Assembly: GCF_028368975.1 (NCBI RefSeq)
Contig: NZ_JAQNDM010000002.1
Location: 4,210,425-4,274,424 of the forward strand
Origin: Stigmatella ashevillena
Lineage (GTDB): Bacteria > Myxococcota > Myxococcia > Myxococcales > Myxococcaceae
Direction: 5' to 3'
Length of the DNA stretch: 64,000 nt
In this document: one piece after another, positions 5,884 through 39,972 of the stretch
How positions within the stretch are numbered: the first letter of the stretch is position 1
How the letters are laid out: the number at the start of each line of letters is the position of its first letter
Translations under genes and position numbers: made by a program
The notes under the pieces: generated by a model
What the model was told of the DNA's origin: nothing
Seen by the model: the letters and a program-made list of their open reading frames with translations, nothing else
Databases searched by the model: none

Positions 5884-8031
5884 ATGTCCGCTTCTCCGTC
5901 CTCCCCTCCTTCCATTCGCAGCGAGCCCTCGTGCCGCGAAATGGATGCCTTCTGCCTGCGGTACGCCCCACGCGCTCCGGGGCACGCGGCCGTGAGGGAC
6001 CTGTGCCGGTTGCTGTACGTCATTCCCAGTGAGGACCGAGAGGCGAGGGATGCCTGGGTCGAACGCTGCATTGCGTGGCTGAGAGAGCCGCGCTCCGCCT
6101 CTGGGCTGCACGAGGAGGAGGAGCCCCAGCCCCTGGCCGCCTCCCGTCTGAAGCTGCTGGTCCGAGTACTGGAGGGCGAGCGCACCACGCGGCTGTCCCT
6201 GTCCCGGCTGGTAGGCGCCATCTGTGCCGAGGCGCATGGCCTGAAGCTCTTCGCCCAAGTGGGGCTCGCGGACCATCCGGGATTCCTCTCCGAGCTGGCG
6301 GACCGCGTGCTGCAGCGCCTCCTGCCGACCCCGCCCGACCCCGAGCGCCTCTCGGACCTGCTGCACCTGTTTCCAAAGCCCGAGGATGTCACCTGGCTGG
6401 AATCCCTGCCCGCGGGGTCCCTGGCCCGGCTCCTGGCCCTGGTGGGAGAACCTCCGCCCCCGCTGCCCGATCCCGGAATGGTGTTCCGGGCCCACCTCGT
6501 GGATGCGCTCATGCTGCTGGCCACGCGGACCGCGGCGCAAGGCCTGGCCGAGGAGGTCCGCGACCGCAGCCCGGGCATGGCCTTCCGCGCCTCGCCCTTC
6601 CTGCGCTTGCGCCGCACGTGTGATGGCGTGCTCGCCCGGAATGCCGCACCGGACACGCTCCGGGAGCTGGAAACCGCCGTGGCGGATTGCCGGAGCGTGA
6701 CGGACACCGTCACCCAGCACCTGGAGCAGTCCGGGCTGAGCGTGAAGCTGGTGTACCGGCTGGACGCCATCCGGGGCGGGCTGGACCGGCTGGAGGCCAT
6801 CGCGCGGGTGCTGGGCGCCTCGCCCGGGGAAGCGCGCTGCCGTGAAGGGCTGGCGCTGATCCTCCACCTGCTGCGGCAGGCGCACGAGGAGCGCTCCGTG
6901 CGCGAGTTGGCGAAGACCCACCTGCGGCTCATGGCGCGCACCACCATCGAGCGTGTCGGCCACTCGGGCGAGCACCCCCTCATCTCCACGCGGGCCGAGT
7001 TCCACGCCATGGTGCACTCGGCCTCCGGGGGAGGGCTGCTCGCCGCCGTCACCGCCGCCCTCAGCCTCTTCCTCGACAAGCTGCCGCTGGCTCCCTTCTT
7101 CACGGGCCTCGTCTCCACCTTCAATTACGCGGGCAGCTTCGTGCTGATGCAGTTCCTGGGCCTCACGCTGGCCGCCCGGCAACCGTCGATGACGGCCGCC
7201 ATGCTGGCGGGCGCCATGGGCGGAAAGGGTCCCCGGCCTGGACGGCTGGAGCGGCTGGAGGAACTCATCCCCTGCCTCACCCGGTCCCAGCTCGCGGCGC
7301 TGCTGGGCAACCTGAGCTGCGTCCTGCTCGCCTCGGTGGGCCTGACCCTGCTCTACCATCAGTCCACAGGCCGCCCCCTGCTCGAGCCCGAGCAGGCCCA
7401 GTCGGTGATCGACTCCCTCCACCCCTGGCGCAGCGCCACCCTCGCCTGGGCAGCCCTCACCGGGGCGCTGCTGTGGGCGGCCAGCCTGGCCTCTGGCTGG
7501 CTGGAGAACTTCTTCGTCTACCGCCGCCTCCCCGAAGCCCTGGCCCACCACCGGGGCCTCCAGCGGCTGCTGGGGGATGCAGGCGCCCATGGCCTCGCGG
7601 GCTTCATGCTGCGCCACGTGGGGGGCATTGGAGGGGCCCTCACACTGGGGGTGTTGCTGGCCGTGGTGCCCAAGGTGGGCTCTTTCTTCGGCCTGCCCCT
7701 GGAGGTGCGCCACGTCACCCTGTCCCTGGGCTCCCTGGCGCTGGCCGGAGGGGCCCTGGGCGCCCAGGCCGTGCTGACCTGGGGCTTTTTCGCCGCCCTG
7801 CTGGGCACCCTGGGCATCGCGGTGCTCAACATCGGCGTCTCCTTTGCCCTGGCCTTGACGGTGGCCCTGAGGGCGAGGGACATCACCTCCCAGGAGAGCT
7901 GGCGGCTGCTCCGCTGGGTAGGGCTGCGCCTGATGAAGGAGCCCCGCTCCTTCCTCCTGCCCCCCCCTGTGCCGCCTGCCCCCGCCGCCCCTGAGCAACC
8001 CGTCCCCGCGCCTGCCCAGACCGAGGGCTGA
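5884..8031 (+). CDS. Gcr-family ('site-specific recombinase') integral membrane protein
   Basis: A 715-residue protein. The first ~370 residues are soluble and helical; the rest holds about six to seven membrane segments. The hallmark of the family is GHSGEHPLISTRAEFHAM near residue 359, followed by a small-residue-rich run (SASGGGLLAAVTAA) and a segment with NYAGSFVLMQFLGLTLA. The family is called site-specific recombinase (Gcr) in databases, but a polytopic membrane protein with no recombinase catalytic motif is unlikely to recombine DNA. The true role is unknown. ATG 5884 follows an in-frame GTG at 5881; no clear ribosome site is seen. Between a MlaC-like and an RND gene, a role in envelope lipid traffic is an inference. 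Confidence 0.7.
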   Translation: MSASPSSPPSIRSEPSCREMDAFCLRYAPRAPGHAAVRDLCRLLYVIPSEDREARDAWVERCIAWLREPRSASGLHEEEEPQPLAASRLKLLVRVLEGERTTRLSLSRLVGAICAEAHGLKLFAQVGLADHPGFLSELADRVLQRLLPTPPDPERLSDLLHLFPKPEDVTWLESLPAGSLARLLALVGEPPPPLPDPGMVFRAHLVDALMLLATRTAAQGLAEEVRDRSPGMAFRASPFLRLRRTCDGVLARNAAPDTLRELETAVADCRSVTDTVTQHLEQSGLSVKLVYRLDAIRGGLDRLEAIARVLGASPGEARCREGLALILHLLRQAHEERSVRELAKTHLRLMARTTIERVGHSGEHPLISTRAEFHAMVHSASGGGLLAAVTAALSLFLDKLPLAPFFTGLVSTFNYAGSFVLMQFLGLTLAARQPSMTAAMLAGAMGGKGPRPGRLERLEELIPCLTRSQLAALLGNLSCVLLASVGLTLLYHQSTGRPLLEPEQAQSVIDSLHPWRSATLAWAALTGALLWAASLASGWLENFFVYRRLPEALAHHRGLQRLLGDAGAHGLAGFMLRHVGGIGGALTLGVLLAVVPKVGSFFGLPLEVRHVTLSLGSLALAGGALGAQAVLTWGFFAALLGTLGIAVLNIGVSFALALTVALRARDITSQESWRLLRWVGLRLMKEPRSFLLPPPVPPAPAAPEQPVPAPAQTEG

Positions 8032-31932: not shown

Positions 31933-33540
31933 ATGACGCTCAGAGCTGTTGCTGTCTCCGCGCCGGATTGGATTGAGGGCTCCAAAGATTCCCGCGCGTT
32001 GAACAGCCGGGATCCAGCGAGTCTTTTCAATGCTTGCCGTTACGCTGCTCTCAAAACATTCGACCCATCGAGTTCATGGTCTTCCAGCAACTGGGTGGGA
32101 ACGCGCGTGGAGCGGCGCTCCAAGGTCCTGCTCATGTACTCGCTCGACGACATGCCTGCCTTCGCAGGGCTCCTGCAGCGCGAGCAGCCCAACCTCCTCC
32201 TGATAGGTGCCATGACGCTGTGCCTGCCAGGAGCGGTGGCCTGCGCCGAGGTCGCCAAAGAGATTCTCGGCGACCGTGTCCTTGTCGTCCTGGGAGGACG
32301 GCACGCAAGCGAGTCCATGTACCTGGAGCGTCACCACGCCCGCACGCCGGACAACGTCCGGCATCACCCCAGCTCCCCTCTGCACCTCATGGCCTCCGGC
32401 CGCATCCCGCGGGTGTTCGATCTGGTCGTCGCCGGGGATGGCGAACATCTGATCGCCGCCTTGGGAGAGGCAGTCGCGCAGGCCGAGCAAGAAAGTGGCG
32501 TGAGTTTGCCTCGCGCTGTCCTGGAGCGGCTCGACCCTCGAACCCCAGGCGACTGGATCGCCGGAACACTCGAAGGGGAGACTTCCAGGGTCTTGCTCAG
32601 CGCCAGGAGCCCCATCCACTACGCAAGCCTGCCCTCTCCGGTCCGGATGTTCGGAGCCGCCGCCGCCTTCTCCGTTTTCGGAGGGAGGATCACGGCCCAC
32701 GCCTTCAGCGATACGGGGCGCGGGTGCGTTTACGACTGCGCCTTCTGCAGCGAGCGCAGCTCCGTGACCGGCGGCTTGCAGGACCCGATGAACGCGGCGG
32801 CACGGCTCTACCGGCAGCTCGACGAGGCCGTCTCCGTCATCTCCGAGGATCATCCGGCCCGGGGCGCCAGCGCGTTCGTGGAGGATTCGGTCATCCTGGG
32901 CGGGAGCCCGCGGCTCGTGGACCAACTCGCGGAGCGGATGGAAGCAGACCCGCTGGACATTGCCTTCGGCGCCCAATTGACGATCGATCAGATCCTGACC
33001 CGCCGGGCCCAGCTCACCCGGATGGCACGGCTCGGCCTTCGCTATGTCTTCGTCGGCATCGAAACGCTGGTGCCAGAAACCATTGGGGGCATGAGCAAGG
33101 ATCTCGGCCACAAGCGGGCCTCCTGGCTCTCCCGCATCCACCAAGCGATGGAGCTTCTGCGCGACCAAGGCATTCACTGCGGCTGCGCGATCCTCTTTGG
33201 ATTGGGCGAGCCGCAGGAGCGCCGTCTGGAACTCTTGGAAGTGCTCCGGGCCATGCGCGGCCAGTACGGCATGCCGGAGCCCATCAGCGCGAACTGGGCG
33301 GTGCAGCACCCGTTGTGCGGACAGGACGGCGGGGCGGGATACGACTACACCGAGTGGGGGACACCCCCAGGCCCCTTCCTGGAATGCTTCCACCGTTTTG
33401 GCGAAGCATCCGTGCGCTACCCCCTGCCTCAGGTGGGGGCACCGCTGCTGCATGAAGTCAAAGAGGTGACGTCCCTGCTGGACACCCTGGCCATGCCCCC
33501 TCCATCCAGAGCATCGCGGCTGGTAGAAGAACGCCTGTGA
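31933..33540 (+). CDS. B12-binding-type radical SAM enzyme, unknown substrate
   Basis: A 535-residue enzyme. The N-terminal half contains a Rossmann-like cobalamin-binding-type region (about 65-180: NLLLIGAMTLCLPGAV and VLVVLGGRHASE) but no DxHxxG motif; the spot reads DDMPAFAG, so any cobalamin would be bound without a His ligand. The radical SAM core starts with GRGCVYDCAFC (Cys265, Cys269, Cys272, the CxxxCxxC cluster that binds 4Fe-4S and SAM), then AFVEDSVILGG, FGAQLTIDQIL and LRYVFVGIETL as in B12-dependent methylases and related enzymes. The stop overlaps the GTG of the PLP gene (GTGA), so the two products are made together. Confidence 0.8.
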   Translation: MTLRAVAVSAPDWIEGSKDSRALNSRDPASLFNACRYAALKTFDPSSSWSSSNWVGTRVERRSKVLLMYSLDDMPAFAGLLQREQPNLLLIGAMTLCLPGAVACAEVAKEILGDRVLVVLGGRHASESMYLERHHARTPDNVRHHPSSPLHLMASGRIPRVFDLVVAGDGEHLIAALGEAVAQAEQESGVSLPRAVLERLDPRTPGDWIAGTLEGETSRVLLSARSPIHYASLPSPVRMFGAAAAFSVFGGRITAHAFSDTGRGCVYDCAFCSERSSVTGGLQDPMNAAARLYRQLDEAVSVISEDHPARGASAFVEDSVILGGSPRLVDQLAERMEADPLDIAFGAQLTIDQILTRRAQLTRMARLGLRYVFVGIETLVPETIGGMSKDLGHKRASWLSRIHQAMELLRDQGIHCGCAILFGLGEPQERRLELLEVLRAMRGQYGMPEPISANWAVQHPLCGQDGGAGYDYTEWGTPPGPFLECFHRFGEASVRYPLPQVGAPLLHEVKEVTSLLDTLAMPPPSRASRLVEERL

Positions 33541-34745
33541 CCCACAAGGCCCATCGTGCAGCCCAGGCGGGACTCTTCCCCGTTGGCAACGTCGAGATTC
33601 CGGTCCTGCCGACCATCCACGCGACCACGGTCCTGTTTCCGGACACACGCGCCCTTGCGCCGCTCGATCGCGACTCGCTCAGCCGGTCTGGGGGCAGCCC
33701 CTACGACAACTTCTATTACGGCGGCGTGGGAACACCCACCACGGAGGCGTTCAGCAGGACCGTCGCCGGGCTGGAGGGAGGAACCCATGCGGTGCTGGCC
33801 CCTTCGGGGCAGAGCGCCCTGGTCGCCACCCTGTCCGCACTGCTCAAGCAGGGGGACCATGTCCTGATCGTCGATACGGTGACGTACACGACGCGCTGGT
33901 ACATCGACCAATGCCTCGCTCCCTCCGGTGTCACCGTCACGTACTACCCGCCGGAGGTCACCGACATCGGGCCGTACTTGCGGCCCAACACGCGCGTGGT
34001 GTTCATGGAGTCCCCTGGTTCGCTGACCTTCGAGGTCCAGGATGTGCCCGCCATCTGCCGGACGGCCCGGCACCACAAGGCCGTGACGGTGCTCGACAAC
34101 ACCTGGGCGGCCTCCCACTGCTTCGAGCCTTTTTCCCATGGCGCCGACATCTCGGTGCTCTCCCTGACCAAGTATCACGCGGCCCCGGCCGGCGTTTCGC
34201 TGGGAGCCGTGGTCACCCGGGATGAGGGGCTGCACGGGACGATCAAGAATCAGGCGGCCCTGCTGGGGCTTCATGTCTGCCCAGAGGCATGCTCGCGGGC
34301 AGCGCTCGCGCTGGCAACGCTCGAACTCCGGCTCCGCCATCAAGAGAAGACGGTACGGCACGTCCTGGAGGGGCTGGCCGGGCACCCCGCGCTTCATGCG
34401 CTGTTCCATCCCTCGTTGCCCGATGCCCTGGGCCATGAGCAGTGGCGGCGGGACTTCACTGGCACCAACAGCCTGCTGTCGCTCTCCTTTCAGGGACTCG
34501 ACCGGGCCACGGTGCTCGCACGGGTCGATCGCTTTCGCGTCATTCGGATCGGGTATGGGTGGGGTGGAAACCTCAGCCTGGTGACGGTCTTCGAGGCCAA
34601 CGAATGGCGGACCGTCTCGCGCACCCAGGCCCGTGGGACATGCCTGCGCATCTATCTCGGCCTGGAGGAACCCGCGGAACTCCTGGCGGACCTACGCCAA
34701 GCGCTCGAAGGGCCCACGCGCGATGCCCCCAGAACACACCCCTGA
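33537..34745 (+). CDS. Cys/Met-metabolism PLP-dependent enzyme (cystathionine lyase/synthase fold)
   Basis: A 402-residue enzyme of the trans-sulfuration family. YGGVGTPTTEAFSRTVAGLEG corresponds in order to the usual YxRxxNPT region (quoted part only), SGQSAL follows, Asp187 lies in VLDNTWA and the PLP Lys is Lys212 in SVLSLTKY. The usual GHSD motif after TKY is replaced by HAAPAG, and the Arg of YSR is absent, so the substrate and even the reaction (beta/gamma elimination or replacement) may differ from MetB/MetC. Overlaps both neighbours: 4 bases with the radical SAM gene and 23 with the exporter gene. A role in making a Met/Cys-derived amino acid or product is inference. Confidence 0.8.
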   Translation: MTHKAHRAAQAGLFPVGNVEIPVLPTIHATTVLFPDTRALAPLDRDSLSRSGGSPYDNFYYGGVGTPTTEAFSRTVAGLEGGTHAVLAPSGQSALVATLSALLKQGDHVLIVDTVTYTTRWYIDQCLAPSGVTVTYYPPEVTDIGPYLRPNTRVVFMESPGSLTFEVQDVPAICRTARHHKAVTVLDNTWAASHCFEPFSHGADISVLSLTKYHAAPAGVSLGAVVTRDEGLHGTIKNQAALLGLHVCPEACSRAALALATLELRLRHQEKTVRHVLEGLAGHPALHALFHPSLPDALGHEQWRRDFTGTNSLLSLSFQGLDRATVLARVDRFRVIRIGYGWGGNLSLVTVFEANEWRTVSRTQARGTCLRIYLGLEEPAELLADLRQALEGPTRDAPRTHP

Positions 34746-35745
34746 GCCGCAACGCCCTTCAAGCCTCTGGCCCCTCCTCTCGTTGGGACTGCTGGCAGCG
34801 GTCTTTTTCAGCCTGACGTTCGTGCTCAACCGGTCCATGAGTCTGGCCGGAGGGCACTGGGTCTGGAGCGCCAGCCTGCGCTACGCCGCGATGCTCCTGC
34901 TGCTCAGCGGCTATGTCTTCCTGCGGCGCGGTGGAGCATGGATGGCGGCCACCCTGCGCCTCTTCTTCCAGCGCCCAGGCTTCTGGCTCGTGGCGGGCAG
35001 CGTCGGATGTGGCGTCTTCTATGGCAGCGTCTGTTTCGCGGCGGGCCATGCACCGGGCTGGGTCATTGCCGTCACGTGGCAATCCACCTTGCTGGCTTCC
35101 CCTCTCGTGCTCCGGGCCTTTGGGCTGCGCGTTCCCTGGAGGGGAATGCTCTTCATCGCACTCGTCATGGCGGGCATCGTCCTCGTCAATCTGCAATCCT
35201 GGCGAGGAGGCATGTCGATGCAAGAGGTGCTGCTCGGGGTGCTGCCGGTCTTCGTCGCGGCCTTTGCCTACCCGATTGGAAACCAGATGCTGAATGCGGC
35301 TCGCAATGGCACGAGTTCCCGCATCGCGCCCATCACATCGCCTGTCCTGGGAGATGCAGCCTCTTGTGTGTTGTTGCTGGTGCTCGGCTCGGTTCCGTTC
35401 TGGGTGGGATTGCTCGCCGTGGTGCGCCCTCCAGCACCCACCTCTTCGCAAGTGCTCCAAACGCTCGTGGTGGCCCTGAGTTCCGGAGTCATCGCCACCA
35501 CGCTGTTCCTGCGTGCACGCAATGCGGCCCAGGATGCCTACAGCATCGCTGCCGTCGACGCGACGCAAGCGGGCGAAGTCATCTTCGCCCTCGCCGGTGA
35601 AGTCCTCCTGCTGGGCATGCCGCTGCCTGCCAGTGAAGCGCTCGTCGGGGTTTTCCTCGTCACTGGAGGAATCATCGGCTTCGCCGTCGGAACCCCCACG
35701 AAAAAGGACGAGCCCCTGCGTCCACGAAGGACCCGAAACCCGTGA
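34723..35745 (+). CDS. EmrE/EamA-type multidrug or metabolite exporter
   Basis: A 340-residue inner-membrane protein with ten helices in two related halves (DMT superfamily; the length and WQSTLLASPLVLRAFGLRVPWRG region fit the EmrE-type family PF13536). The start ATG 34723 lies inside the end of the PLP gene. As third gene of a coupled radical SAM-PLP operon it is a natural candidate to export the product or protect the producer. The last ~15 residues are charged (KKDEPLRPRR) and cytoplasmic. Confidence 0.8.
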   Translation: MPPEHTPEPQRPSSLWPLLSLGLLAAVFFSLTFVLNRSMSLAGGHWVWSASLRYAAMLLLLSGYVFLRRGGAWMAATLRLFFQRPGFWLVAGSVGCGVFYGSVCFAAGHAPGWVIAVTWQSTLLASPLVLRAFGLRVPWRGMLFIALVMAGIVLVNLQSWRGGMSMQEVLLGVLPVFVAAFAYPIGNQMLNAARNGTSSRIAPITSPVLGDAASCVLLLVLGSVPFWVGLLAVVRPPAPTSSQVLQTLVVALSSGVIATTLFLRARNAAQDAYSIAAVDATQAGEVIFALAGEVLLLGMPLPASEALVGVFLVTGGIIGFAVGTPTKKDEPLRPRRTRNP

Positions 35746-38010: not shown

Positions 38011-38038
38011 TTGATTGTTTTCCTGGGCACTGTATGGT
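38011..38038 (+). promoter_or_regulatory. predicted promoter of the putative graspetide locus
   Basis: TTGATT (38011-38016), a 16-base spacer, TATGGT (38033-38038). Each hexamer matches four of six consensus positions. It lies 35 bases before the ATG of the 179-aa gene, in a locally A/T-rich stretch, and AAAGGAG precedes that ATG. Confidence 0.45.
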
Positions 38039-38073
38039 TCGGCTCTTAGCCGTTTTTCTAAAGGAGAAGAACC

Positions 38074-38613
38074 ATGTCGTCATCCATTGGGCCCTCCGGA
38101 AGCCGCCCTACCAGCACCCCGACGGCCGGTGTGCGGGGGGGGCCCCTGGCCACCCCTGTGCAGAGCACGGTCCCTGCCGCCACCACGCCCGTGGCGGGCA
38201 ACCCCCACCTGTCTGACTTTTCTCAGACGGACAGGCTGCGCACGCAGATTGACCAGCAGGCGCGCGCCAACCCCAGCTTCTACGGCACGCTCGTCGGCGG
38301 GGTGAATAGCTTGCTGCAACGGGGAGGGTTCGGCATCTCCCCCGCTTCCCAGCGCAGCGTCATGGAAAACCTGCAGGGCGTGAGCCAGGGCACCATGCCC
38401 CAGTCCACCGCCCACTTCCGTGAGTCGCAGACCTTCGCCCTGGACGCCCTCTCCAGCTACTCCCAGGGAAGGATCATCCAAGGGGAGATGGAGCGCTTCG
38501 GCGCGACGATCAACCTCATCGGGGGCGTCGGGATGTCGGCCGTCGAGGGCATTCGGAGCCTGTTCCGCTCGAGGCCGAGCACGCCCCCCTCCAATGGCGG
38601 AGGCGGCTGGTAG
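38074..38613 (+). CDS. 179-aa hypothetical protein preceding the ATP-grasp gene
   Basis: Not recognised. A strong ribosome site (AAGGAG, about 8 bases before the ATG). The first ~45 residues are Ser/Thr/Pro/Gly-rich and disordered; a helical middle follows (DRLRTQIDQQARANPSFYGTL partly quoted, MENLQGVSQG, FALDALSSYSQG); a weakly hydrophobic glycine-rich segment (INLIGGVGMSAVEGI) comes near 145-160; the tail is SNGGGGW. No signal peptide. It ends 60 bases before the ATP-grasp ligase gene and is probably co-transcribed with it. It could be a partner protein, a secreted substrate or unrelated. Confidence 0.6.
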   Translation: MSSSIGPSGSRPTSTPTAGVRGGPLATPVQSTVPAATTPVAGNPHLSDFSQTDRLRTQIDQQARANPSFYGTLVGGVNSLLQRGGFGISPASQRSVMENLQGVSQGTMPQSTAHFRESQTFALDALSSYSQGRIIQGEMERFGATINLIGGVGMSAVEGIRSLFRSRPSTPPSNGGGGW

Positions 38614-38673
38614 CTCGCGGCGCCCCCACCGCGCGGGGTGGCAGGAGACGGCCGGAAGAAGCAACATCGTCTC

Positions 38674-39630
38674 ATGACGCACCTCGCGCCCGCTCGTCCC
38701 GTGGTTCTCGTCGGTTCCCGCGGTGACGAGCACGTTTCGCGGCTTGCCCACCGGATGGAAGCGCTGGGCGTGGAAACCTTCGTGGTGGACACGCTCGCCT
38801 TCCCGGAGGAGACACGCCTGGCCCTGACGGAGGGCCTCGACGGCATCACCGTGAACGGGCAACCACTCGGAACGCCCGGAGCCGTCTACCTGCGCAGCAT
38901 CTACACCCACCCCCTCGCCTTTGGCGTGGATGCCCAGGAGGCGATGGACGAGGACTGGCGCACCACGCTGGTCGCCTTCCGCGAGAAGGCCACCCTGCTG
39001 AGAGGGCTCCTGGGCCGCTGGGAAGCGCTGGGCGTGCCGTTCTACAACCCCGAGTCCACGGCCTGGCGCCTCCAGAAGCCCCTTCAGCTCGCGCTGCTGG
39101 CACAGGCGGGGCTTCCCGTCCCGGAGACGCTCTGGACGAATGATCCCGAGGCGGTGCGCCGCTTCGCCGCCGGTCGGCGCGTGGCCTACAAGCCCGTGGG
39201 CGGCGGCGCGGCCACGCAGGAGTTGGGGCCCGAGGACCTCACCGATGACCGCCTCGCCGCGTTGGAGGCCGCTCCCGTCACCTTCCAGGCGTTGATGCCC
39301 GGCGAGGACGTGCGCGTCTACGTGCTCGACGGGGAGATCGTCGCCAGCCTGCGCATCCTCTCGCGGGCCATCGACTTCCGGCAGAACGAGGAGCGCGTTG
39401 AGTCCTTCGAGTTGCCCCCTGAGGTGGCCCAGCAATGTCTCCGGGCCCTGCAGGTGCTGGGGCTGCGTTGGACGGGGATGGACCTCAAGCGGGACGCCGA
39501 GGGAACTTTGCGCATCCTCGAGCTCAACGAGTCCCCCATGTTCCTCGGCTTCGATGCGAGGGCGGGCACGGACATCCTGGGACACCTCGCCCGGGGCCTC
39601 GCTCGCGCGGCCCGCACGCCTCGCTCCTGA
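38674..39630 (+). CDS. ATP-grasp ligase, graspetide (omega-ester peptide) synthetase type
   Basis: A 318-residue ATP-grasp enzyme. The N-terminal pre-grasp domain (GSRGDEHVSRLAHRMEALG, VDTLAFPEET, AVYLRSIYTHP) resembles MvdD-like peptide ligases, in which a D-x-H start, an FP motif and a YxR segment are typical. ATP-grasp landmarks are QKPLQ (Lys135), AYKPVGGG (Lys173), MPGEDVRVYVLDGE, GMDLKR and LELNESPMF (Glu283 and Asn285 for Mg). Such enzymes phosphorylate acidic side chains of a precursor peptide and close ester or amide rings. A 51-aa gene with a TTxxxxEE core lies 187 bases downstream. RimK-type glutamate ligases are the main alternative. Confidence 0.72.
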   Translation: MTHLAPARPVVLVGSRGDEHVSRLAHRMEALGVETFVVDTLAFPEETRLALTEGLDGITVNGQPLGTPGAVYLRSIYTHPLAFGVDAQEAMDEDWRTTLVAFREKATLLRGLLGRWEALGVPFYNPESTAWRLQKPLQLALLAQAGLPVPETLWTNDPEAVRRFAAGRRVAYKPVGGGAATQELGPEDLTDDRLAALEAAPVTFQALMPGEDVRVYVLDGEIVASLRILSRAIDFRQNEERVESFELPPEVAQQCLRALQVLGLRWTGMDLKRDAEGTLRILELNESPMFLGFDARAGTDILGHLARGLARAARTPRS

Positions 39631-39816
39631 GCAGGCAGGCACTCAAGGGCCCTGCTCCCGGCAGACCCTTCGAACGCTTTTCAAAAATATCGGGTTTTGC
39701 CTTGGCCCAGGGCCAGGCAGGACACACCTTGGGTTCAAGGGCGCGCTGTGGAAAAGAGTGCTGACCCTTATCTTCGTGGGATGGGCCCACGGGATTCTGC
39801 CTTCAGGGAGGTTGTC

Positions 39817-39972
39817 ATGAAGCGCGAGAATCAGGAGCAGAAGAACAAGCGGATCAAGGAATTGTTCGTGCAGGATCTCGCCCGCATCGAGGGCAAACAG
39901 GGTGTCGCGAGCACAGAGAATGCCTCGGGACCGTTCACCACATTCGCTCTGGCTGAAGAGTCGGGCGCGTAG
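39817..39972 (+). CDS. candidate graspetide precursor peptide (51 aa)
   Basis: A small gene with a very good ribosome site (GGGAGG, 5-base gap). The product starts with a charged helical leader (KRENQEQKNKRIKELFVQDL, then ARIEG) and ends with a core GPFTTFALAEESGA. TTFALAEE fits exactly the TTxxxxEE motif of plesiocin-type (group 2) graspetides, where the two Thr are esterified to the two Glu by an ATP-grasp enzyme to form nested rings. There is one core copy. The ATP-grasp gene lies just upstream on the same strand. A single-repeat match could occur by chance, but leader shape, size, ribosome site and ligase neighbour agree. Confidence 0.65.
   Translation: MKRENQEQKNKRIKELFVQDLARIEGKQGVASTENASGPFTTFALAEESGA

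Follow-up and report, generated by a model that had tools for sequence, protein, structure and literature searches.

A predicted plesiocin-type graspetide system with a single-core precursor in Stigmatella ashevillena

Introduction

Plesiocin, the prototype of the group-2 graspetides, has esters that follow a ring-within-ring hairpin pattern (PMC13097080, PMC12291112) and potently inhibits serine proteases (PMC13097080). For Gra-5, a group-2 graspetide from Glaciecola, a single dehydration was observed in E. coli (PMC9576775). Microviridins have a PFFARFL leader, a TxKxPSD core and two ligases (PMC7823629), and corallotide has a large precursor with five repeats, Lys isopeptides and an oxygenase (PMC13097080). 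Here, we describe a locus in a window of the Stigmatella ashevillena genome, the window being the whole stretch of 64,000 nucleotides that was analysed. We are highly confident that this locus represents a two-gene plesiocin-type (group 2) graspetide system whose product would contain one hairpin-like nested bicycle, an assignment based on homology, motif conservation, co-inheritance and the anatomy of leader and core. A search of the open literature returned neither a single-core group-2 precursor nor a graspetide from Stigmatella, and an earlier listing in surveys is possible.

Results

The locus comprises the following features:

38674..39630, + strand: ATP-grasp graspetide synthetase, PsnB orthologue, 318 aa (PsnB sequence match, fold match)
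39804..39814, + strand: ribosome-binding site of the precursor gene (core GGAGG kept in four species)
39817..39972, + strand: 51-aa precursor peptide with one core and an LFVQDL motif in its leader (linkage to ligase, PsnA2 profile match)
39862..39879, + strand: LFVQDL motif for recognition of the leader, residues 16-21 (L16 and F17 unchanged in all 22 precursors)
39937..39960, + strand: core motif TTFALAEE, residues 41-48 (all four T/T/E/E invariant in 22 precursors; aligns with PsnA2 TTLAIGEE)

The ligase ORF (38674-39630) starts with ATG, and a longer form is possible from a GTG at 38638. The precursor ORF (39817-39972) reads MKRENQEQKNKRIKELFVQDLARIEGKQGVASTENASGPFTTFALAEESGA. A preliminary description of this DNA had assigned to it a good ribosome site and an exact TTxxxxEE motif; indeed, GGAGG precedes the ATG in four species, and TTFALAEE occupies residues 41-48. 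The ligase gene lies upstream of the precursor gene as described, the gap measuring 186 rather than 187 bases, and the locus bounds stand except for the earlier start at 38011, which also takes in an unrelated gene for a 179-aa protein (38074-38613). TTFALAEE is the sole TTxxxxEE within the six frames of the 64-kb window, as compared to an expectation of 0.25 per 64 kb in first-order Markov sequence.

Comparison of the ligase with domain libraries revealed the RimK domain PF08443 as the only Pfam domain exceeding its curated cut-off, while Pfam picks up the pre-ATP-grasp domain only weakly (PF21068, E 0.12, under cut-off). The best NCBIfam models were those of peptide maturases (TIGR04187, 81 bits; TIGR04184, 64 bits), and all scores are far under the curated cut-offs, so that this library gives the ligase no name. 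In contrast to the RimK-type ligases, which reached at most 44 bits in a search of PDB sequences, PsnB (7drm) was the top match with 327 bits (E 9.7e-97) and 52% identity (157/302 aligned residues), followed by MdnC (5ig9) with 53 bits (E 2.8e-13). In a maximum-likelihood tree, PsnB and the 28 ligase orthologues form a clade (support 92/86) apart from the microviridin-type ligases and from ~35%-identical ligases of other genera (L028-L031), which form a separate clade. This tree contains long branches, and the pairwise scores suffice alone for the grouping with PsnB. An AlphaFold2 model of the ligase (mean pLDDT 82) matched PsnB complexes in all of the best 15 PDB fold matches (E 2e-35 to 2e-29), as compared to E 2e-19 for MdnC and E 3e-16 for RimK. 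Thus, the MvdD-type pre-ATP-grasp domain previously proposed for this ligase is corroborated by TIGR04184/TIGR04187, the full-length alignment with PsnB and the predicted fold, and the proposed choice between a graspetide synthetase and a RimK/glutathione-type enzyme falls to the former, as the ligase groups with PsnB by sequence, tree and fold. Judged from sequence comparison and the structural model, it belongs to the graspetide-synthetase branch, with PsnB specifically as nearest kin. A conserved in-frame TGA in the ~35%-identical ligases was dismissed, being merely the natural stop just ahead of the alignment end.

An alignment of 22 precursors, with starts picked by eye because automatic start-codon choice is unreliable, left only M1, L16, F17, T41, T42, E47 and E48 invariant. 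By sequence, these residues match the expected recognition and cross-linking positions, T41 and T42 being the predicted donors and E47 and E48 the predicted acceptors. As the precursors were collected via the TTxxxxEE motif, the T/T/E/E invariance arises partly by selection; unlike the latter, the presence of an ORF with an LF leader and TTxxxxEE near almost every ligase orthologue is no selection effect. At the first position of the loop, all 22 aligned precursors have F, Y, L or M. When compared with the PDB, the precursor profile produced one credible match (E 2.2e-4; next E 0.65), namely PsnA2(14-38), the plesiocin precursor fragment LFIEDLGKVTGGKGGPYTTLAIGEE that was crystallised with PsnB. 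The profile was needed for this match, since the lone precursor sequence scored only E 1.1. The profile alignment pairs LF.DL of the leader and TT.A.GEE of the core: the leader motif LFVQDL matches the PsnB-bound motif (LFIEDL in PsnA2), and TTFALAEE aligns with plesiocin TTLAIGEE free of gaps. For the closest pair of loci, dN/dS was ~0.4 for the precursor, whose 51 codons are too few to give this value weight, and 0.15 for the ligase.

A single-core TTxxxxEE ORF adjoins the ligase or lies within ~4 kb of it in 26/28 orthologues; the distance is ~1.5 kb or less in most loci and up to ~4 kb in three. Within the genus, the four genomes with the ligase all have the precursor, with the same position, frame, core and GGAGG, and the three congeners without the ligase also lack the precursor. 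Among 195 genomes of the phylum, full-length precursor matches (E < 1e-7) were found in 26/26 ligase genomes versus 0/169 others (Fisher p 7e-33, which overstates the concordance since genomes are not independent by descent). Twenty of the 26 ligase genomes had supplied profile rows, so that their matches hold by construction, leaving as informative G007, G053, G055, G056, G067 and G077 plus the 169 negatives. Weak matches (~1e-4) in other genomes cover the core region only, mostly beside ~36%-identical ligases. Inspection of the ligase neighbourhoods in G056 and G067 revealed no adjoining precursor; each of these genomes carries one remote cysteine-core precursor elsewhere, and both were dropped as counter-examples. 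The co-conservation by which the preliminary description wished its proposal to be judged is thus found both around the 28 orthologues and across the phylum. Its count of one core copy was also correct and is usual across this myxobacterial clade: a single core is the rule in this clade and no peculiarity of this locus.

Within the window, we found no C39 transporter, the nearest genomic C39 domain being more than 2.6 Mb away, and neither a leader protease nor an exporter is encoded near the locus. The leader has the sequence EGKQG, without the double-glycine that several related precursors contain. Double-glycine precursors (EGG or QGG) with a C39 peptidase-ABC transporter nearby are present in G002, G004, G007 and Sorangium So ce26. 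With neither a double-glycine nor a C39 domain within 2.6 Mb, leader removal has no local explanation here, as is likewise the case for many graspetides (Makarova et al., PMC8939145). An NHLM/C39 peptidase-containing transporter is a frequent companion of group-2 systems, but no requirement (PMC13097080).

Several Myxococcus-type genomes with one orthologous ligase (G063, G067, G056, G068, G073, G079 and G055) harbour extra cysteine-core precursors, which lie 0.66-1.5 Mb away from the ligase in the same-contig cases. These remote group-2 precursors (L088, L089, L090, L091 and L093-L097) have cores of the types TTLACCEE..CC and TTLACGEEPNGCSGC, and up to five group-2 precursors occur per genome; no ligase was found in the 9-13 kb fetched around the remote cysteine-core precursors. 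A VKOR/C39-like gene is located immediately upstream of the ligase in 5/6 loci with linked cysteine cores, L040 being the exception:

L035:4061-5977: VKOR/C39-like gene
L039:10102-11958: VKOR/C39-like gene
L042:10297-12066: VKOR/C39-like gene
L043:10291-12060: VKOR/C39-like gene
L044:10438-12210: VKOR/C39-like gene (assigned through similarity clustering only)

No such gene was found by the ligase at the other loci fetched; it was seen only with linked cores that contain cysteines, and the protein is thioredoxin-like in two loci. In relatives, the remote precursors and the VKOR/C39-like genes hint at synthesis in trans and at the formation of disulfides. There is perhaps an even chance that one PsnB-type ligase per genome serves several scattered single-core precursors in trans, many of them with cysteine-rich cores (e.g. 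TTLACCEEADDGCC), to produce nested esters plus disulfides, with the adjacent VKOR/C39-like protein acting in oxidation or processing where such cores are linked to the ligase, and that the window contains the simplest form of this arrangement. Unlinked cysteine-containing precursors escape searches that are limited to the gene cluster.

Further graspetide-like loci were encountered in these genomes. A remote precursor with the core STLACGEE, in which Ser replaces the first Thr (L092, ~6470-6630), is encoded immediately upstream of the gene for a C39 peptidase-ABC transporter, ~7.4 Mb from the ligase of its genome in contig coordinates. A precursor with eleven TTMAVGEE/TTLALGEE cores, compared with four in plesiocin, is divergent from a gene for a ~35%-identical ligase (L087:3102-3842). 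The S. ashevillena genome itself has a second graspetide-like locus (L086, C2:5205500-5217500), where a two-core precursor (TTLAVGEE and TTMSLREE) is divergent from a ~36%-identical ligase. Two ATP-grasp ligases in tandem, which cluster with MdnC of the microviridin type (L043:13672-15651), are found ~3 kb from the PsnB-type ligase, i.e. two graspetide systems are neighbours there. Elsewhere in the window (31933-35745), a cassette encodes an EmrE-family transporter, a PLP enzyme of Cys/Met metabolism and a radical SAM protein of the B12-binding type (TIGR04434, 860 bits).

Discussion

In the proposed pathway, the ribosome would make the 51-aa precursor, whose leader would be recognised by the ligase around LFVQDL. 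By analogy to PsnB, the ligase would use ATP to phosphorylate E47 and E48 on their side chains, which would then be joined as esters to T42 and T41, respectively, in the order of links known from plesiocin. Two waters would be lost as one hairpin-like ring-within-ring bicycle closes around the F-A-L-A loop, and the leader would subsequently be cut off by a protease encoded outside the locus. We infer the catalysis, the ring connectivity and the two esters from PsnB and plesiocin. For the tryptic fragment QGVASTENASGPFTTFALAEESGA, the computed [M+2H]2+ is 1171.543 in unmodified form and 1153.532 after a loss of 36.02 Da. We hypothesize that the product acts as an inhibitor, most likely of a chymotrypsin-like serine protease, a target proposed because plesiocin is a potent inhibitor of serine proteases. 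The first loop residue might act as P1, which is a guess from protease specificity in general; F, Y, L or M at this position fits the P1 preference of chymotrypsin-like enzymes.

Could the ligase be an amino-acid ligase, RimK-type or otherwise, that extends a protein, and the small ORF a product of chance? The fact that PF08443 alone passes the curated Pfam cut-off is in line with this idea, but no RimK comes within 270 bits of the PsnB score, the predicted fold resembles PsnB and MdnC more closely than RimK, and TTxxxxEE, expected 0.25 times per 64 kb, nevertheless occurs near 26/28 orthologues. A RimK-type identity is ruled out by sequence scores, tree and fold, and we regard this explanation as extraordinarily improbable. 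A plesiocin-type system could also yield one ring only, ester or amide, or links that deviate from the nested pattern of T42-E47 plus T41-E48. Two rings are not assured here given the single dehydration of Gra-5 (PMC9576775); however, the four cross-linking residues are invariant while surrounding positions vary freely, and TTFALAEE pairs with TTLAIGEE of plesiocin without gaps, which makes a deviating ring pattern rather unlikely.

A different view would add a third component. The 179-aa gene is on the same strand as the ligase gene, 60 bases upstream in this genome, and is located just upstream of it in all four ligase-bearing congeners; since partner-dependent graspetides such as rosaritide exist (PMC13097080), its product might be a partner protein of the pathway. 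Yet the 179-aa family occurs in 41/96 family genomes, mostly unlinked to the ligase or in its absence, the gene has a paralogue elsewhere in its own genome, and comparison of orthologous loci revealed no 179-aa gene beside the ligase in other genera. In G042, which is devoid of an orthologous ligase, the 179-aa homologue adjoins what is apparently the same TPR gene, as judged from an antisense reading. This wide, mostly ligase-unlinked occurrence led us to discard a partner role, which appears very improbable. The 179-aa protein has no Pfam or NCBIfam match, and in its family the N-terminus is rich in proline and threonine, while the C-terminal half is conserved. In view of the pairing with the TPR gene in ligase-free G042, the ligase and precursor genes look like a separate two-gene module set downstream of an older gene pair.

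Taken together, the locus is a real plesiocin-type graspetide locus, a new member of an ordinary and already known kind. With one enzyme, one 51-residue substrate and one predicted bicycle, it provides a minimal plesiocin-type system that suits testing the choice of donors and acceptors by group-2 synthetases and the targets of a monovalent hairpin. In addition, ~26 myxobacterial genomes provide naturally occurring variants of the loop, in which the probable specificity position is F, Y, L, M or Q. The 51-residue gene is so short that gene callers may miss it.

Among the known systems, microviridins (MdnA with MdnB/MdnC) likewise employ ATP-grasp ligases with a leader-binding pre-grasp domain to form side-chain lactones, but their ligase is distant from the one described here (5ig9, E 2.8e-13). 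Corallotide (cor cluster, Corallococcus, group 15) is likewise myxobacterial and made with an ATP-grasp synthetase. The closest relative is plesiocin (PsnA2/PsnB) from Plesiocystis pacifica, whose ligase is 52% identical and has the same fold, and which shares with this locus the LF.DL leader motif, the TTxxxxEE core spacing and the use of one ligase for all links. The PsnA2 leader contains a double-glycine (VTGGKGG) that is missing here, as is a C39 transporter near the locus, and plesiocin has four cores rather than one, tandem cores being taken as a trait of the prototype and no criterion for the group.
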